In this document: piece after piece, positions 1 to 64,000 of the stretch
Layout of the letters: every line of letters begins with the position of its first letter
Position numbering within the stretch: position 1 is the stretch's first letter
Origin: Tilletiopsis washingtonensis
Lineage: Eukaryota > Basidiomycota > Exobasidiomycetes > Entylomatales
Reading direction: 5' to 3'
Assembly (NCBI RefSeq): GCF_003144115.1
Contig: NW_020312002.1
Coordinates: 860,750 to 924,749, forward strand
DNA length: 64,000 bases
Position numbers and translations under genes: made by a program
Notes under the pieces: model-generated
The model's database searches: none
Told to the model about the DNA's origin: nothing
What the model saw: only the letters and a program-made list of their open reading frames with translations

Positions 1-640
1 CGCCACAGTGGCCCTGTGTGCAGCCAGTGCCATACGCCGCCTGGGCGCTGCTGTTGATGCCTTGGCTGAGAATGTTGTCAAGGCGCAGTGCATCCTGGCT
101 GTGTATGTCACTGGACTGCATCACATCTCCCCAGCACATGCTGCCTCTGCGCCCATTGCTGCCCTCCCACTGTCCCCCAAGGGCAGCAATTCAGAGATGT
201 GGCTGCCACTGGCTGAAGCAGATGTGCATGGGCAGCAGGGAGATGCTCCCAGCCTGGCTCTGCTACCGCCTGGTTATCTTCTGCACATTGGTTCCCTCCA
301 TTGTCCTCCCTACAGTCATCCCCACAGACATCTGCATCTGCCATGTTGCCCATCCTGTCCTCAAAGCACCTGACCCAGTCTGCATCAAACTCCATGTCAA
401 GAGCTTCAGCTCCTGCCTGAGCCGCTTCTTCTGCATCTACCTCTTGCCACTATTGGACTCACCCATCAGAGGATGCCATCCTCATCACGGTAGAACCCTG
501 CTGGGATGAACTCCATTTTGAGGATAGCAGTCTAGGTGGGCCTGCCATGTGATCCAGATGTATGGGGAAGGTTGACTGCATCATGCCCCTGCTGGCCTGC
601 CCCACAAGTGAGTCCCACACCCCTGCCTTCCCACCTGCCC

Positions 641-698
641 CACCATGGGAGTCCTGAGTCTCAAATCTCAAGTCCCAAGTCCAGAGTCCCCAGTCCCG
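641..698. repeat. Degenerate heptamer repeat
   Basis: Successive variants of AGTCCCA/AGTCCAG/AGTCCCC can be read by eye. This is a small, diverged simple repeat with no sign of a functional role. Confidence 0.5.
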
Positions 699-1147
699 CA
701 CCTCTGCCAGCCTGCCTGCCCCCCTAAGGCCCTCGGTGCCCAAGGCCCGCACAGCGGCATGCCGGCACTGCCTTGGGCCACCCAGCTCCGCTGCTGCACT
801 GCCAGCCTGCCAAACTCCCTCCATGCCACTGCCCACCTGCCCACCACTCACCACAACACAGACAGAGACTGAGGAGGGCTGCAAGGCAAGTGCCAGGTTG
901 ACGAGTGCCGGGTTGACGGTGATTTAGGAGGGAGGGGGTTGATGGTGGTCCAGGAAGGGCTGCAGTGTGCCTGGCTGCAATTGCGCACAGCAAGCTGCGG
1001 CGTGGAGTGGACTGCGGCGCCAGGCCACACCATGCCAGCCTTTCCTTCTCAAATAATCTCCCGCACGCACTGGGCGCTGGGGCAGTTGTACCCGCAAAGC
1101 CGCGCGCCATTGCGGCGCTGCGGCGCTGCCCAAGGCGGGCGCAAGGG

Positions 1148-1204
1148 GCCGCTCCAGATATGGAGCAGGAATGGCTGCCCCTGCCGCTCCATATCTGGAG
1201 CGGC
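1148..1204. repeat. Perfect 19-bp inverted repeat, 19-nt spacer
   Basis: Arms 1148-1166 and 1186-1204 are exact reverse complements (left arm GCCGCTCCAGATATGGAGC). The pairing stops at once on both sides. Each arm also contains a smaller CTCCA/TGGAG palindrome. It could form a hairpin or cruciform, or be the remnant of a mobile-element end. No target-site duplication is obvious next to it. Confidence 0.8.
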
Positions 1205-1383
1205 GCGCTCCTGCAGCTCTCCCTCCCCCCACCACCTGCACGCCGCACCACAATGCCTGCCGCCCGCCGCGTCTGCGTCTGCTCTCCTGGCTCTCCTCTC
1301 CGGCCCCTGCTAACTCCCCTGTCCCCCCCAGAACCGCTTGCCCTCGACGCCTCCCCGCCGCTGCACTCACTTGCTTGCCAGAA

Positions 1384-1906
1384 GCTTGTCGCCTATCAAG
1401 GCTTCTGAGGCACAGCTGGAGCACGCCAAGGCTTAAGCTGCCAAGGGCAACCTGGTTGCACGCCTGATGCTACTTGGTGCTAGCGTGTCAGAGGTGAGAC
1501 TACCACAGCTTCAGCCTGCCATCCAACTCAGGCTAACAAATGCTGTACACAGGCCATGTGCCACGTCTCAGAGCAGTCCAAGCTCAATGCTGCTGTGGCT
1601 ACTCAGGTTGCCAAGAACTGCACAGCAGCTGACGCACAGCTCATCAAGACACGCACTGCAGCCACCATGCTGCACCTCAAGAACTTGAGTGCCAAGCACA
1701 CTGAGTGGGCTGAGGAGTGCCACCTGGATGCAGAGGCCCAGGCTGCAGAGCGCCACATGGACGCAGAGGCCCATGCTACACCGCAGGCCTTCTACTGGTC
1801 CAGTGTTCAGCAAATTGGCCATATAGTTGCCGCGCACATGAACGCCACCAAGCCTCTCCCTGCCACTGCACCTGCTGAGGCCAAAGAGGTGGCACCTGGA
1901 ATCTAA
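1384..1906 (+). pseudogene. Exon relic, helical/coiled-coil-like protein
   Basis: Two stretches join across a convincing intron (donor GTGAGAC at 1494, acceptor ACACAG ending at 1552) and keep one reading frame. They encode a lysine/alanine/glutamine-rich helical segment of about 150 residues that ends at a TAA at 1904-1906. The upstream exon is broken by an in-frame TAA near 1432. Codons end mostly in G or C, as in a real gene. The family is not recognised, and no start codon or upstream exon is convincing. It is probably a decayed element or duplicated gene. Confidence 0.4.
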
Positions 1907-2124
1907 TTGACAGGCACTGCGCCTGTGTCCTCCTTCTTCATGCAGGGCTCCTCTCACATTCTTATCAGGCAACCTGACACAAAAGCTAGAGCAAAAGGTC
2001 AAAAGGCCTGCTTGTAAAGACCCTTGTCTGCAGAAGCAGGAGCAGGTCTGCATGCAGCTGACAAAGCTCAGGCAGCGAGAGGGGAAGGATGAGCACAGCA
2101 GCGCATCTGCGCCTCTTGCGCTGG

Positions 2125-2534
2125 CAAGGGGATGATGCCAGAGCAGAAGGAAGCCAGCTGCGCGTACTGTGAGAAGCAAAAGGCGGAGGGCACAACATAC
2201 AAGGTCACCCCTTAACAGTCAAAGAAGTACTGCAAGACTTACACCGCGCTGGGCATTGAGTACAGGGGGCCAGAGCAGAACTGGCAGTACTACCTGACCG
2301 CCAAAGGAATGGGTCAGGCCTGGGCAGTGGACAAGAAGCGGTGCGGCCGCAAGTTGCGCAGCAAGGGCACTTGCTTCTACTTCTTGCCACTGCCCAATGG
2401 CAGGCCCACTGCACTTGACGCGCTGCAGGAGGCAAAGCCTGCAATCAAGACCACACTTGACGCGCCAGCTGTGCAGGGGGTGGAGTGCGTGAAGCGCAAC
2501 TTGCTGCCAGGCTGCTGGATGCATGAATGGGACA
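2125..2534 (+). pseudogene. Exon relic with CxxC motif, one in-frame stop
   Basis: A plus-strand frame of about 136 codons runs up to a good splice donor (GTGAGTC at 2535). It has a CAYC motif and a second Cys further on, followed by a basic patch and an aromatic-rich segment, suggesting a small zinc-binding fold. It is interrupted by one TAA near 2214, which a single C-to-T change of CAA would give. The protein is not recognised. Confidence 0.4.
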
Positions 2535-2535
2535 A

Positions 2536-5500
2536 GGTGAGTCTAACCCCTGCCTTGGCTTTGCTGTTGGGCAAACAGAGTAGCATCTTCACACAGTGAG
2601 AGGGGCAAACAGCAGACTTGACATGCCAAGGTTAATGCACCTGGCCTTGTCATTGTTGGCTGCTGTAGACTGTCAGCACAAAGTACTTGCGCAGCACACT
2701 TGCACAGTGTGTGGGCATCTGCTTGAGTCTGACACATATAATTCAAGCAGATCAGTACATTGCAGTGCAGCGCAACTCCCGCGGCCCCAGTTAATCAGAT
2801 GGAGCAATTGGTCCATAGCAAGAGATGGCGCGTGCTGCAATGCCGGTGCAGGTTTGTTGGCTGACACCCAGCAATGGCTTGACAGCAGTGCGGCTGCACC
2901 AGCCTAGGCTGCAGATGACAAGGCAGCACCTTGAGGGGCAGACAATGATGCAGCCTCTTGAGGCGCACATGTCAACACAGCACTTTGAGGCTCAGCTTGG
3001 AGCTGGCGTGGCTACTTTCCACTTCTACTTCTTCTGCCAGCACAACAAGGGGCCGGTAGCAGCTGACAAGGGGCCGGCAGCAGCACCAGCCAACAAGTGG
3101 CTGGCAGCGGCTGCGCCAGCCAACAACCCTGACGCCGCCGCCTGGGCACGCGTACAGGGCAGCATGCAGCAGCGTGGCAAGGGGAGATGCTCAGAGAGAG
3201 GAGAAGAGGAGGAGGCTGGAATGCAGCAAGACAGGGGTGAGGAGGATGGGGTGGGAAAGGAAGGGGCGGCAGCAGGCAAGGCAACAGTTTTGTAGAGCAG
3301 GCCAGCACAGCAGCAAGCAGGAGGCAACACCCAGCGGGAGAGGCCCATCAGGGGGCAAAGCGCCTTGGCGCACAACGCCTCTGCTGGAGCGGCTGTGTTG
3401 GTATGGGCAGCTGTGGCCTGTCTGTGGGCCTGCTTGCGCCCACCACCTTGCCTGCTTGCACTGCGCTACGCCCTCTGCCTCAACCCTGCCTGGTGGCCAC
3501 ACCTCCTCCTCTGCCCACGTCATCCCACACCCTTGCTGCCATGTTGCCTGCAGCGCCCACTGGAGGCGCATCTGGGTTGGCTGGCCAGGCCATTGCTGTT
3601 TTGTTGCACAGCCAAGCCATTGCAAGCCCATTGGCCAGCCAGGCCACTGCAAGCTTGTGAGTCAAGCATTGGCGCCGCATTGCAACTTGGCAGCCTTGTT
3701 GATGGACATTGTGCAAGCAGCAGCGCTGCACCTGGAGGGCACTGGCCTTGCAGACACGTTGTCTGGCAGCTCATCTGCCTCTGGACGCAAGCAGGAGGAG
3801 TTCAAGCTGCACATTTTACTGCATGTACCAAAATTGGCTGCAATGTGCGCTTTGCTGTCAAATGTTGGGAATCAAATGTTGGGATGTACGCAAGAGGAAA
3901 GAGACACTGCATCTTGCTGAGCATGATGCCAACAATCATGCTGCTTTGCTAACTGCCTTGCAAAGCGTGGACCGGTTGAGTGGACCAAGATCATTGTGCG
4001 GCCCTCCCTGCCAGGTATGGTCTTCAGTCAGAATGTGTCCTGGAGGCCCTTGCGCCATGCTTTCTGATGCTGCTCAACAGCATGCTGGGTGACAGAGGTA
4101 GAGGCTACGCCATGCCAAGCGGCATCAAGATCACCCTCTATTGTCATGCAGCAGCCAGCCTGGCCCCTGCGCTGCGTCCCATTGTCTCTCTCTTTGTGAA
4201 GAGCGTGAGTGCACAACTGCCTGCAGAGAGAGTCAAGATGCTGCTGCCAAATTCCTGCTCTGACTCAACTTCCTCACACAAGAAAAACCCAAGATCTGTC
4301 AGAAAGAGTTGCAGCCTCAGGCCTTGACGGGCAACTCACCCAGATGCAAGCCATGCACAAAGTTGACTGGCATGTTGCAGACAGGACTCCAGTATGACAG
4401 CAAGTAGACAATGGAGAAGCAAGCGCCTGTGGCAATATAGTGGCATGTCAGACTGGCAAACATTGTGAGCCTTGGTGCTGCAAGCAATGCTGCCGCATGG
4501 TAAGCAGGGTTGCAGCTCTGCATTGCAGCAGCTGCGCACAGCAGCAGCTTGAGATGCAGGCAAAGTTTTTGCCAGGGCCCAGCTGCAACTGTGCAACAAG
4601 AGGTGCAAAGGCAAGCCGCCAATCTTGGTGCGCTTGATACAATTTTGATTGAACACATGCAGCCACCTTGACAAGGCATTTACACCCGTGCAATCTGTCA
4701 GGTACATCAATTGCTCACTGCCACTACGCAGCCCACACTCTGCAAACCCCTTCTCCAGGCCCAAGCTTCATGCATTAACTCCCTTGCGTCACTAATATGA
4801 CTTTCCTGACGCACCTCAACACTGTACTCATCAATCTGCATCCTGTGCAACCTTCATGTCTGGTGCCTGACCTGGTGTGAGCGCCGCTGTGTATGTTGAG
4901 ACAGCATACAAGGGTGTCTGTGCCCCCTTCCCCTTGATGTGACTGGTGCTGTGCAAGGCGCACAAGGTCCAAACAGGGAGCACTCTCTTCTGGGTGCTGG
5001 CGCACATGGGAGAATTGCTGCCAGAGCGCAGCCAACAGCCATCTCAAGCTGATGCATCATGCTGCGCTCTAGGCATGCTGCAGAATCAGTGGCACAGCCA
5101 AAGAAGTGATACGCTGAACCAGCATTGTTCTTTTGTGCATCCCTACATGCCCTTGAGCAGGACCAAGCTGTAGATGACAAGGCTGTTGGCGCAACTGCTG
5201 GCCAGCTTGAGAGCGGCTTTGCGCATTGCTTCCGTAATTGTCTCCTTGAAGAGCTGGCCCAGATGCTCCAGCGCATTGATGAGATGCTTGCACACTGCAG
5301 CGCATGCACAGGCTGCTATGGAGGTAAAGGCAGAGACCAAGATGGTGGGCAAGGTGATGGAGGCAGGAACAGCCAATGCAGCGTCCCTGCTGCTGGCAGT
5401 GCCAGTGCCAAGCACAAGAGAGTGCAGGCGCAAGTTGAGTGGCGCAATTCAGCAAGAGTGAAATCCACCTGATGTGCTGTTTACGGCTGGAGAGCAAGTT

Positions 5501-6138
5501 TAGCTGTGTGCTAAGCCAAGCAAGACTGCAGACTCACCAGTGCAGCTGCAGAGGAGATTGAGTAGACGCTCCATGTCCTACGCTACATAGGATGTGCACC
5601 AGGCCACCACATTGCTGACGCACTGCTGCCCTGCAGGCCTTGAACTTAAGCAACCAACTGTAACTACTACATTGCACTTCCAGATGTGCTGTGGCCTGCA
5701 GTTGTAATGGCTCTGCAGCGCCACACAACCGTCATGCGCTCTACATTGCTGATGCAACAAATGCTAGACAACAGGTGCAGCTGGAACAGAATGGAGACAG
5801 CAAGTGGATTTGGCACACCCACACAGCAACTGACAAGGCAGCTCTAGGGCACAGCTGCACCCCTTTCCTGCCTGCTTCACCTCTCCCTGCTGCAGCTACA
5901 GAGGCTGCAATCTGCAGATGTTGCCATGTAGCTCAAAGCTTGCCAAATCTACTGCAACAGCAATGATGTGAGTGGGACATGGAAAGAGAGACCTGCCAAC
6001 AATGTACCTCCTTGCACTCCACAGGGCGCAGGTACCCCTTGCATGTGTTGTTGACCTGCGCCATGTAGGGGTGTGTGGGGCACATATGCCGTCACCAGCT
6101 GGACGCATCCCAGCTGTGAGTGTGCAAGCGCTGGCAGA
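2536..6138. other. No gene recognised; hypermutated stretch
   Basis: Only short open frames are present, none with a recognisable family. A plus-strand frame at 5125-5472 (115 codons) has a plausible helical segment but no supported start or splice sites. Local short repeats occur around 3040-3125 (GGGGCCGG-type) and 3570-3660 (GCCAGCCAGG-type). Confidence 0.5.
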
Positions 6139-6139
6139 A

Positions 6140-6348
6140 AGGTCTCTGGCGCCAACAACATCAATGGCTGGCACAACAAGGCAGGGTCAGGCAGCATGCT
6201 CCAGGACAAGAAGGCAACGCGGCGCACAGACAGTCACTTCCTTCAGCTGTACAGCCAACAACTGCTTGAGGGCACCTGTCTTCTGCACATCAAGGCCATT
6301 GGCTTGCCCCACAAGCGCTTCATGGGGCTGCAGGACAGCGTGTCAAAG
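6140..6348 (+). pseudogene. Internal exon relic
   Basis: About 70 codons are open between a possible acceptor (GGCAG ending near 6139) and a good donor (GTGAGTG at 6349). The residues are balanced and look like protein: an NNINGWHN stretch, then a basic helix and an HFLQLYSQQLL segment. No family is recognised. No flanking exons could be joined, so it is treated as part of a decayed gene. Confidence 0.35.
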
Positions 6349-6458
6349 GTGAGTGTAGAGCTGTAGGCAGCACTTTACTGGAGCGCTTTTGCTGTCGTCA
6401 TGACAACAAGGCAGTTGTATACTGCAGCACCGCAGATGTCAGCAAAAGCAAGCAGCAT

Positions 6459-6536
6459 GAGCAGGCAGCAAGGGCAGGCAGCAAGCGCAGGCAGCAAGAG
6501 TGGGCAGCGCAGGCGCACAACAAGAGCAGGCAGGCC
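6459..6536. repeat. 13-bp minisatellite, six units
   Basis: Six consecutive 13-bp units, consensus GAGCAGGCAGCAA, with the last three diverged. It lies inside the hypermutated domain and has no associated gene. Confidence 0.75.
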
Positions 6537-6890
6537 AGGCATGTGTATGTGCGCTGCAAGACATGCAGGCAAACTCCTGACAAGAGCTAATGGCCACTAA
6601 TCTATCTATCCAAGGCAAGCAGTAGGATGCCATGTTGATGATCTACCATGCTGCCTGCCAAACAATGGCTTGCGTGGCTGCCCACGCATGCAAGCTCTTT
6701 GGGCTCCTGGCGCTGAGGCAGCAGCAGCAGTAGCAGCAGCGCAGCAGCAGCGGCAGTCTCACCTCAAGAACAAGAATTGCAAACAACTTGCGCACAAGAC
6801 ACTGGCACCTGACAGACCACGCCTTGTCAACAGTGTGCAGCACCTACAGCAGGTCAGGGTCAGCACAATCACGCGTTGCGCATGCACTAC

Positions 6891-8064
6891 TCACAGGTCC
6901 AGCATCCCACAGCACAAGGAGATTGGTACAGAGGCCGGAGCAAGGGATCTGTTGGGCTTGCGTGTCTCCTTGTAGACAAGCATGCAGTGGCAGCGCTGCT
7001 TCTTTGCCTTCTTGGGAGCCTTGTGGTTTTGGCGGCGCTGCCAGACATTCATGCTCATGTTGCTGTAGACAAGGGTGCACGCTGCTGCTGTTACCAGCGT
7101 GCTCTCAAAGCACATTGCGTACACACCACCGCACTTCTTAGGTTCATTCTGGATGCCGCAAAGCTTGTCCAGCAGCTTGTTCAGCTTGTGTAGAACTCAA
7201 GTTAGATATGTAAGAAGAAGAGACCTCAAGGCACTTGCTCAATGCGCTTGCTTGTTGACAAGACACGTTGCTGACCCTTATCCTGCCTGGCAGCACCTAC
7301 TCACAATGCATTGCCCTGTGGATAAGTGCTGCGGCAGATGTCAAAAAGCTTGCGCGTGCGGTTCTCAAAGCTGCCAATGAACTCTGCCAAGGGCATCTTG
7401 ATGTACTCCTCCAGCCAGTAGCAGCAGGATTCAACAATTGCGCCGCCTATGCCAAGCGTCAGCAAGAGCTTGAGCATGCGCAGCAACAATCTCAAGCATG
7501 CACCAACTGAAGCAAGCTTGACCATGCGCTGAGGATGACAGGTTCAAGCATGCGCCAAGCAGGACGTGCTTGAGTGCGCGCACCAACAGCGGCCTGCAAG
7601 AGTAAGCTCAAGCATGCATCAACAGTGGCAAGCAAGAGCACATGCGCCAACAATGGCAAGCTTGAGCATGCACTGGGAATGGCATGCGCACAGAGAGAGG
7701 CCCACTCCAGCATGTGTGCCAAGGACAGGACAGCAAGCTCCAGCAGCGCACGCGCATGCGCCCGCCAGCAGCTTGAGATGTTGGACGCGCGCGCACATGT
7801 GTTGCCAGCCGCTCAAGACGCCAGATGCTGTTCCACGGCAGCAAGCTCAATTCACCCTTGGGAATTGGCCAGAGGCAATGCTCCTTCAGCTTGACAAGGT
7901 ACAGCTTGTCCCAGTGCATCATGTGAGCAGTGGAAGGCATTCATTCCCATGCTCACTGCTCTTCTGCGCTTGCATCTGTACGCCAAGCTGTACCTTTCCA
8001 ACCCCTGCTTGAGGACTGCTTGCTGCAACATAGTGGTCTTTTCAATTGTAGTGTACCATTGCAT
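6891..8064 (-). pseudogene. Decayed minus-strand multi-exon gene
   Basis: Three minus-strand stretches look protein-coding: 8064 down to about 7920, 7525-7301, and about 7190-6891. The first is basic and helical, beginning MQWYTTIEK. The second carries a WLEEYIKMPLAEF segment. The third has an MSMNVWQRRQNHK basic patch. The frame shifts between 7940 and 7850, stops separate the segments, and the degenerate repeats at 7455-7700 lie between them. No transposase or helicase motif was recognised. It is likely a relic of a mobile element. Confidence 0.35.
7455..7700. repeat. Degenerate CAAGCATGC-rich repeat cluster
   Basis: The word TCAAGCATGC or its reverse-like form GCTTGAGCATGC recurs at irregular 25-50 bp spacing, with accompanying CCAACA(G/A)TGGCAAGC. 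The units are too diverged and irregular for an array of functional repeats. Confidence 0.5.
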
Positions 8065-8783
8065 GCAGCAAGCATGTAAGAACAGGCGTCAATCCCTGCA
8101 TGGTCAGCCTGCCAACAAGCACATGCTCAATGTTGTGCAACCAGAGAGCAATGGTTGACATGGAGCCATGTTCAGACCAAAGGATGTTGCTTGTCTCATT
8201 TGCAGGGCCAAGCTATGTGGGTGACGCAAGCATCTACAGGTCAGAGCAGAAAAGAGCATGCAGGAAAGAAGGGGTTGCTTGCCATCCTGCGCTGGCACAA
8301 ATTCACACTCACTGCACATGCGCCTGCACGCAGCTCTTCTCAAGACAGATCAATCAAATGCAACTGCATTCAGATCCGTCTGCTTGTGCGCAAGAATGGA
8401 AGCGCAAGCAGCAAGCAGATGTCAGGCGCATTGCCTGGCTTCTGCTTGCATCTGCGTGCTGTGCAAGTGTCAAACAGGCAGATGCGCTGCATATTCATGC
8501 TGCAGCATGGGATCACTGGCTGCCCAAGCTGCTCTCACTCAGCATGCTGCAGCTGATTATATCAATGACAAGGTAGAGGGTGTGCGTGGTAGGACAGTTG
8601 CCTTGGATGAAGTTGGAGACGTCTGACAGTCATTGGCAGATTTGTCACTCTGAGTTGCTCTACCCCTCAGAGACTGCCTTGTTGTTTGCAGTGCTGTTGC
8701 TGTGCAGTGCTGAACAAGTGCATGCGTGAGAAGCAGGGCGCTAGACGCAGCAGCTTGAAGACATACATGCCATGGAGGACATG

Positions 8784-9041
8784 TCAGAGTAGTTGGCCTC
8801 CAGAATCAATGTCCCTGTTGTGGTTGCTGTGGAGGGGTGCAGAGCGCAAGCATGTGAGCAGATGAGCCACTGGGCGCAAGAGCCAGCATGCACTGTCTAT
8901 GAAGGAGTGCATAGCCGCAGCCAGATGGCCAATGAGGCCAACTTTGCGCTTCTGCAGCTGCTCTGTCCAGTGGTTGCGCTTCTTGGGAAGAGCGGCTGCC
9001 GTGACCTCAAAGTCAGGTAGCAGCTGTAGCTCACTGCCCAA
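8784..9041 (-). pseudogene. Minus-strand exon relic
   Basis: An 85-codon open frame with protein-like composition: a basic WTEQLQKRK stretch, then a hydrophobic helix. It ends in a stop at 8784-8786. No family is recognised and no splice partner was found. It may belong to the same decayed element as the minus-strand exons at 6.9-8.1 kb. Confidence 0.3.
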
Positions 9042-9316
9042 CCCCGCTCTGTACCACTGGCTGGTCCAGAGCTACCATGAGCAACTGCAGCATGTGGGAG
9101 CCCATTTGCCTGCTCTGCTTATCAGACTCTCCAAAGACTGCCAGCCTGCTGTTGTCTCCCAGGCTGTGTGCGTGAGAGATGGTGTGTGGCGCAAGCAGTA
9201 GACGGCATTCTACTTCTGCAAGGTGCAGTGCAGGCAGGGCTGCTCTGCTGCTTTCTCCATCACTGCCTTGTTGCTCCCTTCATTGCCCAACCAGGTTGCA
9301 CAATTGCCAATCTACC

Positions 9317-9876
9317 ATGAGTGTAGTGTCAGGCAGACCCAGCAACAATCCCAGGCACAAGCATACAGGAGATCACAGCTTGGGCAGCAAGCTGCGCAAG
9401 TGTCCCTTGCACAAGGCAACAAGAAGCAACAAGCCAGCAAGGGACAACAAGGCTGCTGCAGCAGCAGCGGCCAAGAAGATGGAGGACAAGCACTGGCACC
9501 ACTTCAAAACCATGGCGTCTAGCTGTAAGGGGATTCTGCAGCTGGCAGGGTGAGTGGCAAGCAGCTGTCTTGAGTCTTGCATCCTGCAGCATGCACTTGT
9601 CACAGCCTGGTGCTGACCCCACTCCCAAGCCTGCCACCTCACCTGACTGCAGCTCCCTATCACAGAGGCAGACTGAGCAGCCTGGCGCAAGCTGCCAGAG
9701 CCGCAGCCTGAGGAGATTGAGATCAAGGATGCATGTAGGATTCACTGGGATAATCCTGATGCAAGCGTGCTCAAGCAGATTGTTGACTCCATCAGCCCAG
9801 AAGAGCTCAGGCCCCTGGCTTAGGATGCTACCAGGCTCAAGAGGCTTGAACAGGCATGGGTGGTATGCCAGCAGAT
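9317..9876 (+). pseudogene. Two-exon relic with C-to-T stop codons
   Basis: A first open stretch (9317-9549) is lysine/alanine-rich with a KKMEDKHWHHFKTM segment and ends at a GTGAGTG donor. A second starts after a CTATCACAG acceptor (exon from 9666) and runs to a GTGAGTG donor at 9877. It carries an acidic segment (EEIEIKDACRIHWDNPD) and a helix. The second exon contains a TGA near its start and a TAG at about 9821; both are one C-to-T step from Arg CGA and Gln CAG. The codon pattern is good but the family is not recognised. Confidence 0.45.
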
Positions 9877-10263
9877 GTGAGTGATTGACACAGAGCAAGC
9901 AGCTTCAGCTGCTTCATGCGCAATCCTCCCCCTCAGCATCTGTCACTGTTGCTGTGCAGGCCAGCAGAGGCAAAGGGAATTGAGGGACCTTGTGCGCAAT
10001 TCTAGCTGCTGCTCCTGTACAAATCTACTGGCAGCATCAGCATTGTGAGGCTGCACCCTTTGGCTAATGCTTGTGAAGGCCAGGTCACTCCTGTGCTGCA
10101 GAAGTGAGGTGCCTGTTATGGCTGCGCCTGCCAGGCCAGCGCTGTCCTTCATGCAGCGTGCCATGTCACATGAGCCTCTTGGCTACAGCAGGGATTGCAG
10201 ATACTGCTGCAATAGCTGAGGTTGTAATGCGCTCTCCAGCACAATGCTGCTACTGCAATGACA

Positions 10264-10632
10264 ATGCCATGCAAGGACATGTACCTGCCTGGGAGCTGCT
10301 GGCGCTACACAGTGTGGGCGCTAGCAAACAACATAGAAGCAGGAACAGGAGTGTTCTTGCTGCCTCCCTGCGCCAGCAAGATGCAGCAGTCTTGGGCAAT
10401 CTTGGCTCCAACCCTATTCAAGCATATCTCCAACTCTGGCCTCAGCCTGGCCAATTATGCTGCACTCTACCTGCTCTTTGGCATTGAAGCCAATATTGCT
10501 GCTAACATCTGCACTGCACTTCAGTTCCAACTGCACATCATGGCATCAACTAGCAAGGCTGAGTGTGCTGCAGCAAGCAAGACCCAAGACAGAGCTGCAA
10601 TGGTCTTGGTCTGTGTCCATCTGCTTGACTGA
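10264..10632 (+). pseudogene. Exon relic or small hypothetical ORF
   Basis: An open frame of about 122 codons just before the composition boundary. It is rich in Ala, Leu and Asn with several hydrophobic helices, and ends at a TGA at 10630-10632. It uses third-position C and A in the style of the hypermutated domain rather than of the genes downstream. No family is recognised and no promoter or start context is convincing. Confidence 0.3.
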
Positions 10633-10857
10633 TCCTCACTGATCTTTCTGGCGCACTCTCTGCCCCACCAGCGTGCGCTCCCATTCAAGACTCAAGCATG
10701 TCACAAACAATCAGCATTGCTCAACATGTGCAGCACCACATGCTGAACGCATCTGACCGTCGATTGTCTGTCGCCGGTCATGTACGCAACCGCCGGCGGC
10801 ATCAGCATCGCTCTTTGGTGGGTTGGGGGCTGTGGCGCGGCCGCAAGCAAAAAGAAT

Positions 10858-10952
10858 CTCTCTGGCCGGGAATCGAACCCGGGTCTGGACCGCCGAAGCG
10901 ATGGACATGCCGTAATGACAAGGTCCCGTCATAACCCCTAAACTACCAAAGA
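10858..10952 (-). tRNA. tRNA-Asp (anticodon GUC) with a 23-nt intron
   Basis: On the minus strand the 7-bp acceptor stem (TCTTTGG with CCAGAGA) pairs with one G-U wobble. The discriminator base is G, as usual for Asp. The D arm and a GGTTCGATTCC B box are intact. The anticodon stem GGACC/GGTCC frames a TTGTCA...C loop, giving anticodon GTC. A 23-nt intron lies at the canonical position after base 37. The gene sits about 100 bp inside GC-rich DNA, right where the TCG-depleted domain ends, so it may act as a chromatin boundary as well as a tRNA gene. Confidence 0.93.
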
Positions 10953-11253
10953 CCGGATATCTGTGGCTCCGGCCGCCAAGTACAAGAGCTATCGGGCGAA
11001 GTTCCGGCCAGCGCGGCGCGGAGCGGCCCGCCGACTCGATCTGTGCCGCGCACGCGTGCTCTGCATCTCACCACCACTTCCTCTCTGCTTCCACTCCCTC
11101 GACGCTGCTGCGCCTCTCTCTCTCGCACGCAGCTAGCTTGCTGCGTGCAAATTGATGGATGTACGGAGCGTTACAGTGCGCGGCTGGGAGTGAGGGCTGG
11201 GAAGGGATGCGCGGCGAAGGAAGAGGTGCGTGATGGCCTGGACGAGGCGGCTC
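10953..11253. other. Intergenic between tRNA and orphan gene
   Basis: Three hundred GC-rich bases including a pyrimidine-rich stretch near 11070-11125. No gene is visible. The region must hold the 5' flank of the tRNA and the 3' end of the orphan gene, both on the minus strand. Confidence 0.5.
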
Positions 11254-11997
11254 CTAGCGGCGGCGGGTGGGGCGCGGGGTGTGGTTACCAAAGACGTTGG
11301 CGGAGCGCATCAGGTTGATGCCCGCCGGCCGGCTCTCGTACCAGCGGCGGTGCTCTGGCGAGCCGGTCAGCATGCCGCTCGGCGTCGCCACCCGGTTGCC
11401 CTGCAGAAGATAAGTCTTGAAGGGCATGTCCGGATCCTTCTTGAGGGCCTCCTCAGTTGCACGCTTCGTCTTCTCCGAGTTGCGCGTGCTGTGCTCCTCC
11501 TTGGACATCTTTGCGTGCCGTCCAGCAACGAGAGAGCCGTCGACCGCACGGTGCAGCTGCTGCAGCTGCGCCACCAGTGGAGCGGGATCGGCGAGCGGCC
11601 CGTCGAGCGGAGCGGGGTTGTAGAAGAAATCGAGCGCGAGGAAGTAGAAGAGGTTGGCGCGGACTTCTGCCAGCTGCGGCTGGTACTTGACGCTGCCGGT
11701 GTGGATGCTGACGAGCAGGTTGATCTCGGTGCCAAGCCCCGGCTGGCTCAGCTGCTGCCAGCCCACCTTCTCGAGGAAGCCGCGACGGAAGCTGGCCTGC
11801 GCATCCTCGAGTTCGCCACGGCAGAGGTCCGGACCGGCGCTCATGAGCAGCTGGGTTTGCGACGCCGTGAGCGGAGCGCCGAGGAGCTCCTCCAGCGAGA
11901 CGTCTCCAAGAAGGGAGCAAGCTGCTTGCAGCAGCTGCGGCAGCACTGCGAGGAAGGCAAAGGCGTCTGCGCCGTCGACCTTGATGCGCGGGGAGCT

Positions 11998-12028
<31 letters not shown>

Positions 12029-13767
12029 AAGCCAGCAGCGCGCAGGAACTGAGCGAGTAGCACCGCGTAGAACAGGTTCAGCTCTTTGCCCCGATTACTG
12101 AGGGACCAGACGTCGATGGAGACGGCATTCTTGAGGCTGCGGCCGCTGCGCGCCTGCAGGCTGTCGTAGATGTCGCGACCGAGCCTAGGCCCAGGGCCGG
12201 CGGCGTCGCTGAAGTAGGAGACGCGGCTGTCTTGCAGCGCCTCGAGAGTAATGTCGGCACCGATGATAATGCCGCCGCTGGCGGGCCCCTCTGCAGCCTC
12301 GAGGAGATGAGCAAAGCTCGCGTCGTTGATGATGACGAGGCTGCCGGGCAGCAGGTGCTGGTGCTGCAGAAGCAGGCCGCGAGCGCGCTTGAGGATGGCG
12401 TGCGGCGTCATCTCCGAGCTGCAGCTGAGCGACGGCGCTGCTTGGCGGAAAGGTGTCATGGATCGAACAGACGCAGCAAGGGCGGGGGGCGGCGCAAAGA
12501 CGTAGTGGAAGCCACCGGGCGCATTGTTAGCCGTCACGCTGCCGCCGGAGCCTCCGAGGATAGAGATGAGCACCGCCTCGCACTCCTGCCAAGGGGAGCG
12601 GTTAATCACCGCCATGCAGGGCAAAGAGCGCAAGGAACGCACCTGTGCGCAGCGACTGGCCCGCCAGTCCATGAGAGTAGCAGCACCATCATCTACTCCG
12701 GCTAGCTCAAAGACGTCAAACTGCAGCACCTTGCTCCACTGCTGCACGCGGCGACTGCTGCCCTTCTCGTCCTCCTCTGCGCGGAGCAGCGCGGCAGCAG
12801 GCGCGTCGCGATGAGTCGTCCCGCCGTACTTTAGGAAAGGCGAGGAGCCGGCTGTGCCGGAGGACGCCGCGGCACTCAGTGCTGTGCACAGGCAGTCGAC
12901 GTGCTGCCGCTCCGCGGGCGTGTCGGAGAGTAGCTGAGGCTCAAAGGTGTCTAGCGCCGCGCCAGAAAGCGGCGCCTGGCGAACGTAGAGATGGCTGCTA
13001 TTCTGGCCCGCCGCCGCCGGGATGCAAAAGGCGGGGACGCTGTGCAGGTCAACGAGCAGCGGCTCGAAGAGGAGCTTGGCCACGTCCTGGAAGTTGCTGA
13101 TGTGCACGACGCGCGCCACTGCATCGATTGAGCTCTGGCGCTGCTGGCCATGCGGGCAGTGAATTGCTAGGACTGCGGCACGCACGCTCTCGAGAGTGAG
13201 AGTAATGCTGCGGAGCGCACCAAGCGCGGCTGCCCGGGCTGCTGCCGCACGCTCGACGTGCTCGACGCCAGCCTGCGCCTCCTCACGCGCATTCTTGCGC
13301 TTGGCGATGCGGTCGTCGAGCCTGGCCGCCGTAGCGGGATTATTCTCGCGGCGGCGGGCAATAGCCGCAGCGTTATCGATGGCGCCAAGGACGGTGCGCG
13401 ACGGCGCAGACGGCATGCCGGGCGGAGCAGGCGGCGCGCGGCTGCTGCTGCCTGCCGACGCCCTGGCCATGGCTTCCGAGGCCGGCCCGAGGCCAGGGGC
13501 CATGCGTGCGGTGCGCGAGGCCGCAGACGCCATGCCGGGAGGAGCAGGCGCAGGCGCCGTTCTGCTGCCGCCGCCGGGAGGAGCAGGCGCCGGCGCCGTT
13601 CCGCTGCCGCCGCCGGGAGGAGCAGGCGGACGCGCCGTTCCGCTGCCGCCGCCGAGAGGAGCAGGCGCACGCGCCGCGCTGCCGCTGCTGCCGCCCGCAG
13701 GCTCAGCAACAACATCGCCGGCTGCAGGCTGACGGCGCAGCAGGTCGAGGATCGTCGGGCGCGGCAT
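11254..13767 (-). CDS. Unrecognised 837-aa protein, possible GIY-YIG-like region
   Basis: A single uninterrupted frame. The Met at 13767 was chosen because the residues upstream of it are low-complexity Arg/Ser/His, whereas MPRPTILDLL begins a plausible protein. Residues about 20-110 hold four 13-residue repeats (GGGSGTAPAPAPP type), followed by a basic helix (ARRRENNPATAARLDDRIAKRKN). The middle has a LYV...KYGGTT segment and further on an EAVLISILGG...NNAPGG segment, spaced loosely like the GIY, YIG-side and Glu motifs of GIY-YIG nucleases. This is a weak resemblance, not an assignment. A (GS)n run near residue 590 comes from a GGAGCC microsatellite. The gene is intronless and TCG-rich, so it has escaped the mutation that hit the neighbouring domain. 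It could be a host gene, a domesticated element or an intact mobile-element gene. Confidence 0.6.
11998..12032. repeat. GGAGCC hexanucleotide microsatellite
   Basis: About five copies of GGAGCC inside the orphan gene, coding on the minus strand for a Gly-Ser run. In-frame copy-number change would be tolerated. Confidence 0.8.
13529..13690. repeat. 39-bp coding minisatellite, about four units
   Basis: Near-identical 39-bp units (GGGAGGAGCAGGCGC... type) encode the 13-residue Gly/Ser/Thr/Ala/Pro repeats near the N-terminus of the orphan protein. The unit length is a multiple of three, so unit gain or loss keeps the frame. Confidence 0.75.
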
Positions 13768-14458
13768 GGCGGATGCGTGCGAGCGGCGGCGATGCAGCGA
13801 TGCAGAGGAGTGCGCGCGCGAGAGGCGAGTGCGGCGGTGATGCAGCGATGCAGAGAGGACGCAGCGCTGCGGAGGAGTGCGGGTGCAACGCAGCGACGCA
13901 CGCCAGCGATGCAGAGGAGTGCGGCGATGCAGCGACGCAGGGACGACGCAGCGATGCGGAAGACGGAGTTGCGAGGGCAGAAGCGTGCTCGCTGGCCGCA
14001 CCCCTTGCCAGCTGGGCGGCGGTGCGGCATGCGAGAGCCCGCCCCCGCGGCGTCGTGCAGCAGCCCTCGCCGCTTGGCCGCGTCGCGCAGCGCCTCACGC
14101 CTCTCGCTGCACTGCGCATTCTCCTCCCCTGCTGCAGCCCTGCGGCTGATGCCGGTGCTGTCGGCGTCAACACGTGCCGCCGGCGCCCACCGCTGCCTCT
14201 GCCGCTGCGCAACCCTCTGCTCTCGCCCCGCCGAGCGCGCTCAATGCTCACCGTAGGCGCCTGCGCGCTGCTTCCCGGACCGCTGCTGCCGCCTCTCCTT
14301 CCGTCTTCGGCCCAGCCTGCCTGCCGCTGCTGCCCCTCCTTCAGCCCAGCCTGCGCTGCCGCCCCTCCTCCAGCCCAGCCTGCGCTGCTGCCTCTCCTTC
14401 AGCCCAGCGTGCAGCCTGCCCATCTCGCGCGCCAGCGACGCCCGCCGCCCGCCGTGCG

Positions 14459-15429: not shown

Positions 15430-18400
15430 TCACAGCCGCGAGCGCGACGGCTCCGCCTGCTGCCACGTCGGCACGCGCTGCCGCACCATGCGCAGCGCCG
15501 TCGCGACCCAGTGCCGCGTCGCCGCGGGGTCGATGACGGCGTCGATCTCCATCTTGGCCGCGACGTTGACCGCGGCGCCGCGCTCGTACGACGCAGCGAC
15601 GAGTCTGGCCGGGTGTGAGCGACGCACGTGTCTGACGTCTCGCAACTCACTTGTTGAAGAGCTCCTGCCGCTCCTCCTCCGACTTGGCCGCCTCGAGCTC
15701 CTTACGGAAGCCAAGACGCACCGCACCTGCGTGGCATAGTCAGCGCGGCAAGCCTCGCCATCGCTGTCCTCTCCCTCACTCACCCTCGACGCCCATCGGC
15801 CCCCACTCGCCATTCGGCCACGACACGCTGCTGTGGTTGCTCAGGCTGCCGCCGCCGAGCAGCCCCTGCGCGCCGAGGCCAAACGCCTTGCGCAGCGTGA
15901 CTGCAGAGGGTCAGCGTATGCGAAACAGGGCCTTCGCACCACTCACTGGCAAAGATGCGGCCGCCGCCGTCTGTCAGCGACGACATCGCCGCAAAGAGCT
16001 CCGGGAACGCGCGCAGGCCGCCTTCGCCCTCCGTCTCGGGCCCGCCGACGATGAAGCCCGGCGTATCGACGAGGACAACAAGATGCGCACACTGCGTCCG
16101 CGCCAGCAGCTGCACGAAGCGCGTCGCCTTGCGCGCCGAGGCCGCCTCGATGGCGCCGCCGAGCGGCGAGGCCACCGACGAGGCGACGACACCGAGCGGC
16201 TGGCCCTCGACGCGCAGGAAGCCCGTGATGAGGTTCTTGCCCCATGCCTCGCCGATCTCGCAGAACGTGTCGTCGTCGGCGAGCAGGCCGATGACCTCGC
16301 GCACGTCGTAGGCGCGCAGCCGCGATTCGGGCAGCACGTGGCGCATGCGCCGCTGGTCGGAGGTGTGCTTCCAGTGGGCAGCGGGCAGCGGGCCCTGGAA
16401 GTAGCCCAAGAGCTTCTTCGTCAACGTCGCGGCCTCGCGGTCCGTCGGCACAACGATGTCTCTGTGCGACGAGTCAGCCAGGGCTAGCATCTCTTCGCGA
16501 GTCACTCACACAGAGCCGCTCTCCGCGTGCACAAGCGGCGGCCCAATGTCGTACGGCTGATTCGCAGTCAGCACTAGTCGCTTCACTTCACGCCGCACTC
16601 ACCTTGTACACGCCGAGCCCGCCGCCCTCGATCATCGCCGGGCCGCCCATGCCAATGCTCGTTGGAAGCCGCTTGGGCGCGCCCTCGACGCCGCCGAGCG
16701 AGGCGATGACAATGTCGCACGTGCCGAGGAGCGCAGCGTTGCCCGCAAAGACGTAGCCAGCGGCAATTCCGACTCGTGGTACAAGTCAGCAGATGACAGA
16801 AGGTGTCTCGTTGCGCCACTCACTGGTTGGCAAGCCACGGGCACGGATCATTGCCATGAGTGTAAAGGCCGGCCCCTCGAGACCTGCAGCGGCACGTCAG
16901 ATGGTGCGAGATCAGAGTAGGCCTGTCAGGCACGCACCGCCTGCCTTGAGCGGCGCCAGATCGACATCGCCAGGTCTGCCACCGCCGCCCTCGGCGTACA
17001 TGATGAGAGGCTGGGGTTTGGCAAGTCAGCTCTGCCGCACCTCAAGACACGCTCCGTCTGCTCACCGCAGGATTCTCGAGCACGGAGCGGAACAGGCGAT
17101 CTGTGAAGCCGTCAGGCAGTACCGCAGAAGAGCTCAACGCGTGACGCACCAAGCTTGAGGTGGTGGAAGTAGCCCTGCGTGCCTGCGAGCACCTGTGCGT
17201 CGCCGAGAAACAGGGCACAGCGGGCGCGCGACTCGGCGCCCGGCCGTGACGGACCTTGCTCAAACAGCCCAGCATTCACAGTTGCCCACGCCGTCCTATC
17301 ACCAGTCAGCACAGTCCACACAGCGCCCACGCCGACACTCACAAGATGCCGTCGCCCTGCGTGTTCGCCAGGAGCTTCTCCTCCGAGATACGCGTCCGCT
17401 GTGCCGCCAGCGCCAGCGCGCCAATCTCAATGACCGAGCCCTGATCAGCGAGAAGCGCCAGATTCTCGCGCGCAGTGAGGAAGCCAGCATCGTGTCTCCG
17501 CTTGACGGCGCTGGTCATCGACTCGGGTGACGCCAGGCGCTGCCGGTCAAAGAATTGCTGCAGCTTCGGCGGGATGTGGTCCAGGTCGAGCTGCTTCTTG
17601 GCCGCCGCAGCGGCGCGCGACGAGCCCGCGAGCGGCGCAAAGAAGAGCAGCGGCGAGGACGCCTGTACGGCATCGCCCTGCTGCGTGCAGATCTGCTCGA
17701 TGCGCCCGGCGCGCGATGCCGTCACGACGTGCTCCATCTTGAGCGCCTCGATGACAGCCACCTGCTCACCCTCGCCGACCTCCTGGCCGACCTGGACGCT
17801 GATGGCCGTGACGATGCCAGAGAGGGGCAGCGCGAGCGCCTCAGTGCCCGGCGGTGCCTGCTGATGCTTGGCCTGAGCTGCGGCCGGAGCGGGAGCCTTC
17901 TTCTCGCCGGACGTGCGCTTTGCCTTTCGCCGTGAAGCATCCTGAAAGAGCTCCGCCCAGTGCTGCTCGACAAATGCCGTGTGCACGCGATTCTTCCCAA
18001 CGGCTGGGTGGTCGAGAAGCGCTGCTTGAAAGTCGAGATTGCTCTCACAGCCTTCGAGCACAAACGCGGCCAGGCTGCGGCGTGCCAGCGCCAGCACTGC
18101 AGGGAAGCTCGGCGCCGTGACGATGACCTTGGCCATGAGCGAGTCAAACGCCGGGCTGGCGCTGTACACGACACCGCCGTGCGGCGCGTGCGCAGCCGTG
18201 TCGACGCGGATGCCGGGTCCGGCGGGAGGGGCAAAGGCCGTCACGGCGCCGACGGCGGGCAGCGCCTCGCCCTTTTCAGTGAGCGTCTCCGAGTTGATGC
18301 GCAGCTGCACGGCAGAGAGCAGTGGAAACGGTAGCGGCGCGGCAGCCTCACCAAGGCCCATATCCCGCAGGCGCTCGCCGAGCGCGATGCGCAGCTGCAG

Positions 18401-19558
18401 TGCCACAAGGTCGAGATGCGTGACCTGCTCCGTCACCGTGTGTTCAACCTGGATGCGCGGGTTGGCCTCCATGAAGAAGTGCTCGCCGCTGTCGGGCAGA
18501 CACAGAAACTCGAACGTGCCGAGCGACTTGTACTTGCCCACCGACGCCATGCGCAGCGCCGAGGCCAGCAGGCGCTGCCGCAGCGGCGATGCTGAGCCGC
18601 CGGACAGACTTGGCGCCGGCGCAAACTCGACGAGCTTCTGATGCTTGCGCTGCAGGCTGAGGCAGAGGTCTGAGCTTACCCACTATGTAGCACGCGCAGC
18701 GCAGTCGCCTCACCTGCACTCGCGCTCCCACAGATGCGCCACGTCGCCACTGCCGTCGCCAATCACTTGCACCTGCGAGGCGCTTCAGCCCGCAGCACAG
18801 GGCTCATGCATCACTTGACTCACCTCGATGTGCCGCGCATTCTCCAGGTAGCGCTCGGCATACAGCCGGGCGTCGCCAAACGCCGCGCCCGCCTCGCGCG
18901 CGCAGCTCTCGTAGGCGCGCGAGAGGGCCGCCTCACCGTCGTCGACGGGCACAACGCGCATGCCGCGCCCACCGCCGCCGGCAACGGCCTTGATCATGAC
19001 CTTTGCGCCGCGCGGCAGCGTCTGTGCAAAAGCGCGCACCTGCTCGAGCGACGCGGCGTCGCCAGCAGTGCCGGGCAGCGTGGGCACGCTGCACTCGGCC
19101 GCCAGGCGCCGCGCACTCGTCTTCTCACCGAAGCGCGCCAGGTGCGCCGGGTCCGGGCCGATCCACACGAGGCCGGCAGCCTGCACGGCCTGCGCAAAGG
19201 CGGGCGACTCGGAGAGGAAGCCGTAGCCCGGGTGCACACCCCAGGCAGACGCGCCCTTGGCGGCCGCGACGAGCGCCTCGGCGTCGAGGTAGGCACGCAC
19301 GCCGGCGGCATGGAGCAGCGTGCGGTGCGCTGGCGGCACGGCGAGCATGTGCGCTGCGTCTGCCTCGCCGGCCGAGGCGACGGCGAGCGCATGGAAGGCC
19401 GTCTGTGCCGACGGCTGCGCGCTGCCGGGCAGCGGGAAGAGGGCGCAGGTGCTGGCGACGCGCAGCGCAATCTCGCCGCGGTTGGCGATGAAGACGCCTG
19501 CAGAGATCAGCACAGGGCCACGTGCTGCGTGCGGTGGGGCTCACTCACCCTTGCTCAT
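15430..19558 (-). CDS. Single-chain biotin-dependent acyl-CoA carboxylase (BC-BCCP-CT)
   Basis: ATP- and biotin-dependent carboxylation of an acyl-CoA by one polypeptide. A 10-nt first exon (MSK) splices at 19548/19498 to GVFIANRGEIALR, the start of the biotin carboxylase domain, which carries the glycine-rich KAVAGGGGRGMR loop and EANPRIQVEHTVTE. The biotinyl domain has EALKMEHV with the predicted biotin Lys at about residue 554. The carboxyltransferase follows, with AEGGGGRPGD, SSIGMGGPAMIEGGGLG, LLGYFQGP and a C-terminal DAVIDPAATRHWV. About eleven short introns split the gene; joins at 19497, 18772, 18656 and 17295 were phase-checked. The order BC-BCCP-CT on one chain, with an acyl-CoA-type CT, matches bacterial long-chain acyl-CoA carboxylase (LCC) rather than two-subunit MCC/PCC or eukaryotic ACC. 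No clear mitochondrial presequence is seen. Substrate unknown. It is divergent to the acyl-CoA ligase. Confidence 0.85.
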
Positions 19559-20245
19559 GGCGGCGGGCGTGGTGAGGGTGGGAAGGAGGCGCGCGTGTCG
19601 GAGCATCGCAGCCCGCCTTCCCCGCACTCGCGCGCTGTTCCCACGCCGAGCTGCCACGCTCCGGCTCGCCCGGCGCCCGGCAGCCGGCGCGCCTGCGCAG
19701 AGCCGCGGAATCGGGAGGCGGACAGCACCAATCTTGCTCCTCCGAGTCCCACACCTCGGCATGCGCAGTTCGATAGCAAGGCCCCTGCTCGGCTCGTGCA
19801 TTCCGAGCTTCTGCTGCGCACAGTGAGGTGCCGAGCCGCGGCGCTGGCGGTGCGAGGTGCCAAGGCGGATGGCGGAGGATGCGTGTGAAAAGAGCGAAAG
19901 CGAGACGCGCTGCCCCCAAACTTGAAGTGGAGGCGCCTCTGGACGAGGCGAGGCGAGGGGCCTTGCAAGCGAGGAAGTGTAGTTGCAGGGGTTGCTGTAG
20001 CGTGTATGCTGGCGATGCTGGCAGACAGAGGCAGGGGCAAGTGCATCATGTCCGGGCTTGGCCATGGACAGGCGGGCGATCAGGTGTGGCGCATGCCGAG
20101 ATCCGCAGGTCTGGCGCCGAGATCTGCATCCGCAGCGCCGGGTAATCACGAGCCGGCGATGGACGGTCCCGCTGCCCGCTCGCCTGGGCCACATTTCACA
20201 GCTGCAGCTGGCGTGGGCACATCTCTCCCAACTACCACCACCGCC
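19559..20245. promoter_or_regulatory. Shared divergent promoter, carboxylase/ligase
   Basis: The 687 bp between the two divergent start codons must hold both promoters. No TATA box is clear. One CCTCGG hexamer (19754-19759), the core of fatty-acid-responsive sites in ascomycetes, is present, but one such hexamer in this composition may be chance. Confidence 0.4.
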
Positions 20246-56151: not shown

Positions 56152-56248
56152 CGTGCTCGAGATGCTGTAGGTATTGCAGGAATGCAGGGAGAATAAGTGT
56201 ACATGTTGTGAGCTAGGGAACAGAAGAGGGGTGGAGGGGCGCAGCCAG

Positions 56249-61770: not shown

Positions 61771-62958
61771 ATGAGCGCCCAGTCCTCCTCGTCTGCCGCG
61801 CGGCCGCTCTTCGATGCCATCCCCGACGCCGTCGCCGCGATGCGCGCCGGCGAGTTTGTCGTCGTGCTCGACGACGAGGACCGCGAGAACGAGGGCGACC
61901 TCATCTGCGCCGCCGAGCTCTGCACGACGGAGATGATGGCGTGGTTCGTGCGGCACAGCAGGTGAGTGCGCTGCACCGCGAGGACGTGTGCGGAGAGCGA
62001 GGTGGTGGGTGTGTGGGCAGAGCTAGGCGGGCACGGCTGCGAGCGGGCATGCCGCAGCACGGCGAGGAAAGAGGAGGGGCCGCGCTGCGCATGTCGCGAG
62101 TCAACGCGCAGCTCCGTCGTTCTCTCAGAGCAGAGAGACTCAGAGGCCGCTCTGGGCATAGCTGTGGCGCTGCGGCGGCAAAGATCCGGGACGTGTTCTC
62201 CTGGCTGCCCCGCGTCATTGCGCGCAGAGGACTTGCCAGAGGCTGCCGCTGTGCTCCGTCGCTTATCGGTCTGGCTCTTGCCGCCATGGTGGCAAGAAGC
62301 GAGCGCTGACGCCGTCTTGCGCGCTCCAGCGGCTTCATCTGCATCTCGCTGCACCCGTCCATCATTGCTGCGCTCGAGATCCCCATGATGGTGCCGCGCA
62401 ACACGGAGAAGAACAAGACGGCGTACACCGTCACGGTCGACTACATCGACGGCACGACGACGGGCATCAGCGCGCACGACCGCGCGCTCACTGCGCGCAA
62501 GCTCGCCGACGCCCACGTGCCGGGGCGCGTGGCGCCGGGCGACTTTACGCGGCCCGGTCATCTGAACCCGCTGCGCTATACGGAGGGCGGCGTGCGGCGG
62601 CGAGGCGGGCACACGGAGGCGAGCGTCGGTGAGTGCTGCATGGACCGTGTGTGCCGCAGCGCTGACTTCTTTCCCATCAGACCTGGCAATCGCGGCGGGC
62701 CTGTCGCCAGCGGCGCTGCTCTGCGAGCTCGTCGACCCCGCCGACCCCAAGGGCGGTATTGCCGCGCGCGACGCCTGCGTGGCCTTTGCGCGCGAGCACA
62801 ACCTGCGCATCTGCACCATCGAAGCGCTGCGCAAGTGGCGCGAGGAGCAGGAGGGCGCCTCGTTTGAGGGCAGCGAGAGCGCGCAGGGCGAGACGCTGGA
62901 CCAGGAGCGCGGCGTGACGCTCGAGACGCAGGCTGTGGCGCCGCCAGCGAGCTCATAG
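61771..62958 (+). CDS. RIB3: 3,4-dihydroxy-2-butanone 4-phosphate synthase
   Basis: Makes the four-carbon precursor of the riboflavin xylene ring from ribulose 5-phosphate. 255 aa from three exons (61771-61961, 62330-62628, 62681-62958), phase-checked. Catalytic acidic loop [12 protein letters not shown]; then [75 protein letters not shown] and LCELVDP. The protein lacks the GTP cyclohydrolase II domain fused to this enzyme in many bacteria, as expected for fungi. The C-terminal 45 residues are an acidic extension. The first intron is 368 bp. It is the last intact gene before the telomere, only 950 bp away, so it may be exposed to telomere position effects. Confidence 0.95.
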
Positions 62959-63905: not shown

Positions 63906-64000
63906 TTAGGGTTAGGGTTAGGGTTAGGGTTAGGGTTAGGGTTAGGGTTAGGGTTAGGGTTAGGGTTAGGGTTAGGGTTAGGGTTAGGGTTAGGGTTAGG
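63906..64000 (+). repeat. Telomere, (TTAGGG)n
   Basis: Almost sixteen perfect TTAGGG units run to the end of the window with the G-rich strand 5' to 3' outward, so this is a right-hand chromosome end. TTAGGG is the common repeat in basidiomycetes and filamentous fungi. The array is probably cut short by assembly. Confidence 0.98.

Follow-up and report, generated by a model that had tools for sequence, protein, structure and literature searches.

The left end of the window, by which we mean the whole 64,000-nucleotide stretch of DNA analysed, is occupied by a CpG-decayed domain from which TCG and its complement CGA have almost disappeared, while a second such domain lies against the telomere at the right end (Table 1). 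The loss is restricted to CpG, depends strongly on the base 5′ of the cytosine, is accompanied by a two-strand rise of TTG and CAA, stops at a sharp edge and recurs at the second site. We suggest, with moderate confidence, that these are silenced domains in which a process strongly favouring a 5′ T changed CpG cytosines to T, likely linked to methylation as in the Pucciniomycotina.

Table 1. Features of the window; position 1 is its first nucleotide.
Feature	Position	Strand	Basis and remarks
CpG-decayed domain	1-10747	.	Two-state HMM segment; runs past the left edge of the window
Patch without TCG/CGA	903-1343	.	Inside the domain; 34 CpGs left
Inverted repeat	1148-1204	.	Self-BLAST; strong potential hairpin; sits in the patch 903-1343
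Main island	1421-10747		Survival fits; TCG/CGA near nil, severe loss of CCG and ACG, GCG affected least
Gene-rich unaffected flank	10748-63014	.	GC 0.70
Edge-to-tRNA interval	10748-10857	.	110 bp; normal CpG and TCG at GC ~0.6
tRNA-Asp(GTC)	10858-10952	-	ARAGORN, introns allowed; 23-nt intron; T run after 3′ end
Second, subtelomeric decayed domain	63015-63905		HMM; TCG-poor (2 TCG+CGA, 30 CpG); against the TTAGGG telomere
Telomere repeat TTAGGG	63906-64000	+	Tandem Repeats Finder; 15.8 copies

Depletion of TCG and CGA

A single TCG and a single CGA are left among the 230 CpGs of positions 1420-10750 (9,331 bp), against a context-blind expectation of 75.6 (binomial p ~1e-36), and the near-absence of both triplets put forward in the original prediction is thus a real observation. 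Its direct count for positions 3901-4500 was also reproduced, with no TCG/CGA and 12 CpGs. The proposed excess of TTG and CAA is borne out by 557 copies in these 9,331 bp versus 871 in the 52,267 bp of the flank, and TCG is indeed abundant from about 10.8 kb onward, the flank containing 2,705 TCG+CGA and 7,441 CpGs. Between position 1501 and the edge, 35 of the 37 250-bp windows lack any TCG/CGA, while none of the 209 flank windows of this size contains one or fewer. Four flank windows with a GC content of at most 0.60 served as a low-GC control (0.59-0.60; the island is lower, at 0.55). Three of these retain 7-11 TCG/CGA with CpG observed/expected ratios of 0.93-1.19, and the fourth (62998), which crosses the 63015 edge, contains two.

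The Microbotryum RIP-like index was taken from the available part of PMC10502011 and calculated with a pseudocount of 1 and with the overlap term, printed there as TGCA, taken as TCGA. It reaches +13 in 1-10747, +27 in 1421-10747 and +3.8 in the subtelomeric domain, versus -0.57 in the flank, where the 51 1-kb bins range from -0.17 to -0.85. The island bins extend from +0.32 (1-1000) up to +18.3, and the edge-crossing bin (10001) gives +0.36. In 1421-10747 the index shows TTG+CAA in greater excess over TCG+CGA than is seen for the other NCG contexts.

Extent of the decayed domains

The two-state HMM places 7 TCG+CGA and 284 CpGs in the left domain, at a GC content of 0.562. A single domain at 1420-10750 had originally been proposed; the right edge agrees with the HMM (10747), while the left edge does not, as the domain starts at or before position 1, and the telomere-side domain had been overlooked. 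Position 1420 is not a domain border, because 1-1420 is also TCG-poor (5 TCG+CGA, 55 CpG). At the right end the HMM call spans 63015-64000 and includes the 95 bp of telomere repeat. The calls respond to the switching cost: with cheaper switching 1091-1360 turns normal, and at a switching value of 0.01 nine short flank spots are called decayed. At 0.001, a 93-bp flank spot (56162-56254) is called decayed.

Within 1-1420, a patch chosen after viewing the data (903-1343) has no TCG/CGA among its CpGs, for which the probability is ~2e-6 at the flank share of 0.321; the longest flank run of CpGs without TCG/CGA is 24. GC-matched flank windows (359, overlapping) contain on average 58.5 CpGs and 24.1 TCG/CGA. 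The product excess in the patch is weak (13 TTG/CAA, where the GC-matched windows average 8.6 and reach at most 15), and the patch is possibly less mutated or younger than its surroundings. The inverted repeat inside it could be a young insertion; the DNA fold of 1130-1225 has a z score of -4.4.

Context preference of the loss

The original prediction held that the loss was confined to one trinucleotide context. This does not hold, as CCG and ACG are also heavily lost: observed/expected ratios in 1421-10750 are 0.01 for TCG, 0.16 for CCG, 0.27 for ACG and 0.79 for GCG, versus 1.41, 0.79, 1.16 and 1.43, respectively, in the flank. CCG stands at 0.20x and ACG at 0.24x of the flank. Equal depletion of all CpG contexts, which would have spoken against a targeted process, is likewise not seen, with ratios spanning 0.01 to 0.79.

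Since each XCGY CpG can mutate from either strand, survival was fitted per strand, with one value per 5′ base and strand fitted to the 16 XCGY counts. In the main island the independent per-strand model (negative log-likelihood 26.7) comes close to the saturated model (22.4), while equal contexts (205.1), loss at T alone (145.6) and T versus a common rest (71.0) fit far less well. Per-strand survival is ~0.01 for T, 0.2-0.4 for C, 0.5 for A and 0.6-1.0 for G, the ranges covering the assumed ancestors: 0.011, 0.225, 0.554 and 0.636 (T, C, A, G) with a flank-density ancestor, 0.011, 0.251, 0.511 and 0.715 with a low-GC flank ancestor, and 0.009, 0.362, 0.469 and 1.025 with a composition-adjusted ancestor. 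All three assumptions give the depletion order T, C, A, G. A first estimate of 1.03 for G had indicated that GCG was fully spared, a claim that is weakened by the 0.64-0.72 obtained with flank-density-type ancestors.

In the subtelomeric domain (63015-63905) survival is 0.08-0.10 for T, 0.34-0.40 for A, 0.44-0.66 for C and 0.70-1.06 for G, and in 1-1420 it is 0.13-0.14, 0.31-0.34, 0.68-0.86 and 0.64-0.82, respectively. T is thus lowest in both smaller segments, where A falls below C or the ranking of the two is undecided.

These fits bear on two alternatives. The first is passive decay, in which ordinary CpG methylation is followed by slow deamination of 5-methylcytosine without a repeat-triggered mutator, the differences between 5′ bases arising from methyltransferase or repair preference. 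CpG is indeed lost in the A, C and T contexts, basidiomycete methylation is mainly of the CG type in the available text of PMC7862722, and the CpG bias of Microbotryum transposons is read, in the accessible part of PMC4469406, as consistent with such decay and with maintenance methylation. A context-blind rate nevertheless fits worse by 112-178 log-likelihood units in 1421-10747, by 8-17 in the subtelomeric domain and by 11-20 in 1-1420, and near-total TCG loss beside the 102 GCGC sites surviving in the island demands a very large rate ratio. We regard passive decay as tenable though somewhat unlikely.

The second alternative separates two processes, a TCG-only RIP-like mutator followed by context-blind CpG decay. 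It would fit the patch at 903-1343, where TCG/CGA is missing yet 34 other CpGs are kept, although the TTG/CAA gain there is small. Loss at T plus a uniform remainder also survives some ancestor assumptions in the smaller segments (p 0.18, 0.08 and 0.006 in the subtelomeric domain; p 0.085, 0.015 and 0.002 in 1-1420), but the main island has strong differences between C, A and G, and this model is rejected there under all three (p 3e-15 to 5e-20). Such a succession appears rather doubtful.

Products and simulated decay

Among the product triplets, TTG stands at 2.03x and CTG at 1.51x of the flank, and the A and G products show similar gains (ATG 1.14x, GTG 1.15x). The largest gains (T, then C) match the largest losses, which points to C-to-T change at CpG. 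Non-CpG cytosines are undepleted, the 12 NCH contexts lying between 0.95x (TCT) and 1.69x (CCC) of the flank. NTC triplets stand at 0.60-0.78x, a drop that the TCG loss itself would cause. On the forward strand of 1420-10750, CAA (328) outnumbers TTG (229), an inequality without explanation for a two-strand mutator. With TTG and CAA both raised, non-CpG cytosines kept, a sharp edge and a high RIP-like index, the proposal of targeted C-to-T mutation stands with TCG as its strongest target; the accompanying claim that this was not general CpG decay fails in its TCG-only part, as the main island loses CCG and ACG too.

The survival of non-CpG cytosines also bears on mutation by UV (sunlight) at methylated CpGs preceded by a pyrimidine. 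In the main island depletion is strongest after a 5′ T or C, as this would require, but TC and CC outside CpG are kept (TCA 1.09, TCC 1.02, TCT 0.95, CCA 1.64, CCC 1.69 and CCT 1.32 relative to the flank), the A context loses CpG too, and UV damage would not halt at a sharp edge. This explanation is scarcely credible, and was rejected on the undepleted non-CpG TC and CC.

Flank DNA was randomly decayed under several rate sets and compared with the trinucleotide profile of the island. The Kullback-Leibler (KL) distance to the island is 0.314 without decay, 0.144 with TCG-only decay, 0.060 with uniform CpG decay and 0.044 with graded decay, the graded profile correlating with that of the island at r = 0.95; a small grid of graded rates has its best value of 0.029 at A 0.5, C 0.2, G 0.7 and T 0.005. 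Flank chunks differ from the whole flank by a mean KL of 0.003 (maximum 0.006), so that the best fit, at more than four times the worst flank chunk, is good but incomplete. Predicted GC contents are 0.583 (uniform), 0.606 (graded) and 0.586 (best grid point), compared to 0.553 in the island and 0.70 in the flank. Graded decay thus accounts for much of the GC drop, and none of the models reaches 0.553. The GC shortfall and the residual KL suggest that the ancestor differed or that other changes occurred.

This GC shortfall, together with the lack of a near match in phage records or of homology in Pfam, would be compatible with an island of inserted or misassembled foreign DNA whose composition is merely CpG-poor. 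Against this, the same contig shows TCG loss, with G most spared, a second time beside its telomere, and most of the island profile can be obtained by decaying flank DNA, making a foreign origin very unlikely.

The right edge and its tRNA gene

The decayed state stops at 10747 and TCG is back from 10760; the window 10748-10997 already contains 25 CpGs and 9 TCG/CGA at a GC content of 0.60. The tRNA-Asp(GTC) gene beyond the edge-to-tRNA interval is the sole tRNA found in the window by either ARAGORN run. In bacterial mode ARAGORN proposed a tRNA-SeC at 10858-10952, which was replaced by the intron-bearing tRNA-Asp, and Rfam at its gathering threshold gave no match for this tRNA. As tRNA genes act as barriers to silent chromatin in other systems, we hypothesize that the tRNA-Asp gene may serve as a barrier to silencing here. 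A 946-amino acid open frame (11254-14094, reverse strand), without a Pfam match at E 0.01, lies beside the domain edge.

Content of the island and the flanking genes

A six-frame Pfam scan (with X at stops) of 1421-10750, 1-1600 and 62950-63905 gave no domain above the cut-off, the sole sub-threshold match being to bHLH_LHW (E 0.12; 12.8 bits versus a cut-off of 28.5). Repeat copies were likewise absent, both within 1-10850 (at least 40 bp) and by self-BLAST of the whole window (E up to 1e-6), which returned one palindrome only, and the phage records held no near match to the domain sequence. Period-3 signal exceeds the 99% shuffle level (1.89) in 11 of 34 overlapping 600-bp island windows, with a mean of 1.58 in the island and 4.58 in the flank. 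Part of this signal could stem from tandem repeats (27- and 33-bp units), and a coding origin of the island is not claimed. The island could represent ancient transposon sequence that mutation has made unrecognizable, or silent DNA present in a single copy; since the window holds no repeat copy and the island no Pfam domain above the cut-off, an origin from repeats or transposons lacks support.

The flank encodes a sterylglucosidase, for which the top-scoring solved structure is 7lpo, the Cryptococcus enzyme (671 bits), ahead of SglA of Aspergillus (451 bits). From this match the host chromosome is probably that of a basidiomycete. Other flank genes encode an MRC1-like protein, an endonuclease/exonuclease-fold protein and an AMP-binding enzyme, while a Forkhead match is weak and below the cut-off. 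At 15783-19702 on the reverse strand lie fragments of a biotin-dependent carboxylase, with biotin carboxylase, biotinyl and carboxyl transferase domains. Their best matches among solved structures are 4rcn, a long-chain acyl-CoA carboxylase, and 5fif, a carboxylase, and the arrangement resembles one enzyme chain interrupted by introns. Open reading frames of 893, 1298 and 1402 amino acids run uninterrupted from stop to stop, and frames of such length would be unusual for the intron-rich Pucciniomycotina, hinting at another subphylum. The high GC content points the other way, as it would also suit Rhodotorula graminis, a member of the Pucciniomycotina with a GC content of ~68%. For Anthracocystis flocculosa a value of 65.3% is given in the available text of PMC10849329, which the flank, at 0.70, exceeds.

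Proposed mechanism

Both domains would lie in silenced chromatin (heterochromatin) on a GC-rich chromosome, probably of a basidiomycete. A CpG methyltransferase, most likely of the DNMT1/Masc2 or DNMT5 type, would mark the domain, and deamination of the marked cytosines, as in the Pucciniomycotina TCG RIP-like process, would turn them into T with a 5′ T far preferred, followed in the main island by C and A, with G least affected. The mark would stop at the tRNA-Asp gene, a putative barrier, and at the second site would abut the telomere; the domains may ultimately derive from repeats. A bolder proposal, which we consider a fairly long shot, is that of a CpG mutator graded by the 5′ base (T far ahead, G almost spared) in a very GC-rich basidiomycete outside the Pucciniomycotina, which acts on whole silenced domains, the subtelomere included, and not just on single transposons, and is stopped by a tRNA barrier. 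If such a tRNA-stopped, domain-wide mutator existed, a heterochromatin border would be permanently inscribed in the DNA. The near-saturated footprint provides a quantitative target preference against which candidate methyltransferases can be tested, and the sharp edge near a tRNA gene makes the barrier hypothesis testable. With a host in the Pucciniomycotina the trait would be a known one, while a host in another subphylum would extend it.

Comparison with known systems

RID-dependent RIP, as in Neurospora and other Pezizomycotina, is set off by duplicated DNA before meiosis and converts C to T over whole stretches with a preference for CpA, whereas here ACA, CCA and GCA stand at 1.5-1.6x and TCA at 1.09x of the flank, and loss occurs only at CpG. 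The decay of methylated CpG in eukaryotes also yields TpG and CpA, but it usually depends only weakly on the 5′ base, while T and G differ ~60- to 110-fold here. A TpCpG-directed RIP-like hypermutation was reportedly described in the Pucciniomycotina (Microbotryum, Puccinia) by Horns et al. in 2012.

The available parts of several papers place this system more closely. TpCpG hypermutation is described as conserved in the Pucciniomycotina (PMC5381629), and the TCG pattern is associated there with Masc2 instead of RID/Masc1, hypermutation being undetected in Agaricomycotina (excerpts of PMC12730594). An excerpt of PMC4014442 reports CpG hypermutation in Rhizoctonia solani and names TpCpG as Pucciniomycotina-specific, and the three basidiomycetes studied in PMC4352252 show, in the portion available, CpG signatures only, together with a Masc2-related Dnmt1. 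DNMT1 and DNMT5 are given as the chief basidiomycete methyltransferases in the accessible text of PMC7862722 and PMC13297926. Among the titles and abstract beginnings listed (for instance 25 of 744 and 15 of 836 matches), in a literature scope with few subscription papers, none places the TCG trait outside the Pucciniomycotina. The repeats of Ustilago bromivora are CpG-poor, similar to those of U. hordei (PMC5106213); this is likewise a CpG loss, located there in repeat regions of a basidiomycete, and the available part of that paper states no trinucleotide preference, unlike the steep 5′-T preference found here.

The closest likeness is to the TCG RIP-like process of the Pucciniomycotina as presented in the available parts of PMC5381629, PMC10502011 and PMC12730594, with the same two-strand C-to-T change at TCG, the same TTG/CAA products and a high index. 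That process hits repeats and transposons; for the domain here, the search of the window gave no repeat copy and no Pfam domain above the cut-off. The Microbotryum index, in the text available, takes the other NCG contexts as controls, whereas CCG (0.20x) and ACG (0.24x) are strongly lost here. The domain behaves like the Pucciniomycotina process, strict membership going beyond the evidence, as other NCG contexts are also lost. It reflects a CG-directed C-to-T process of a type already known in one basidiomycete branch, with the graded preference and the sharp edge on the tRNA side as its points of interest.
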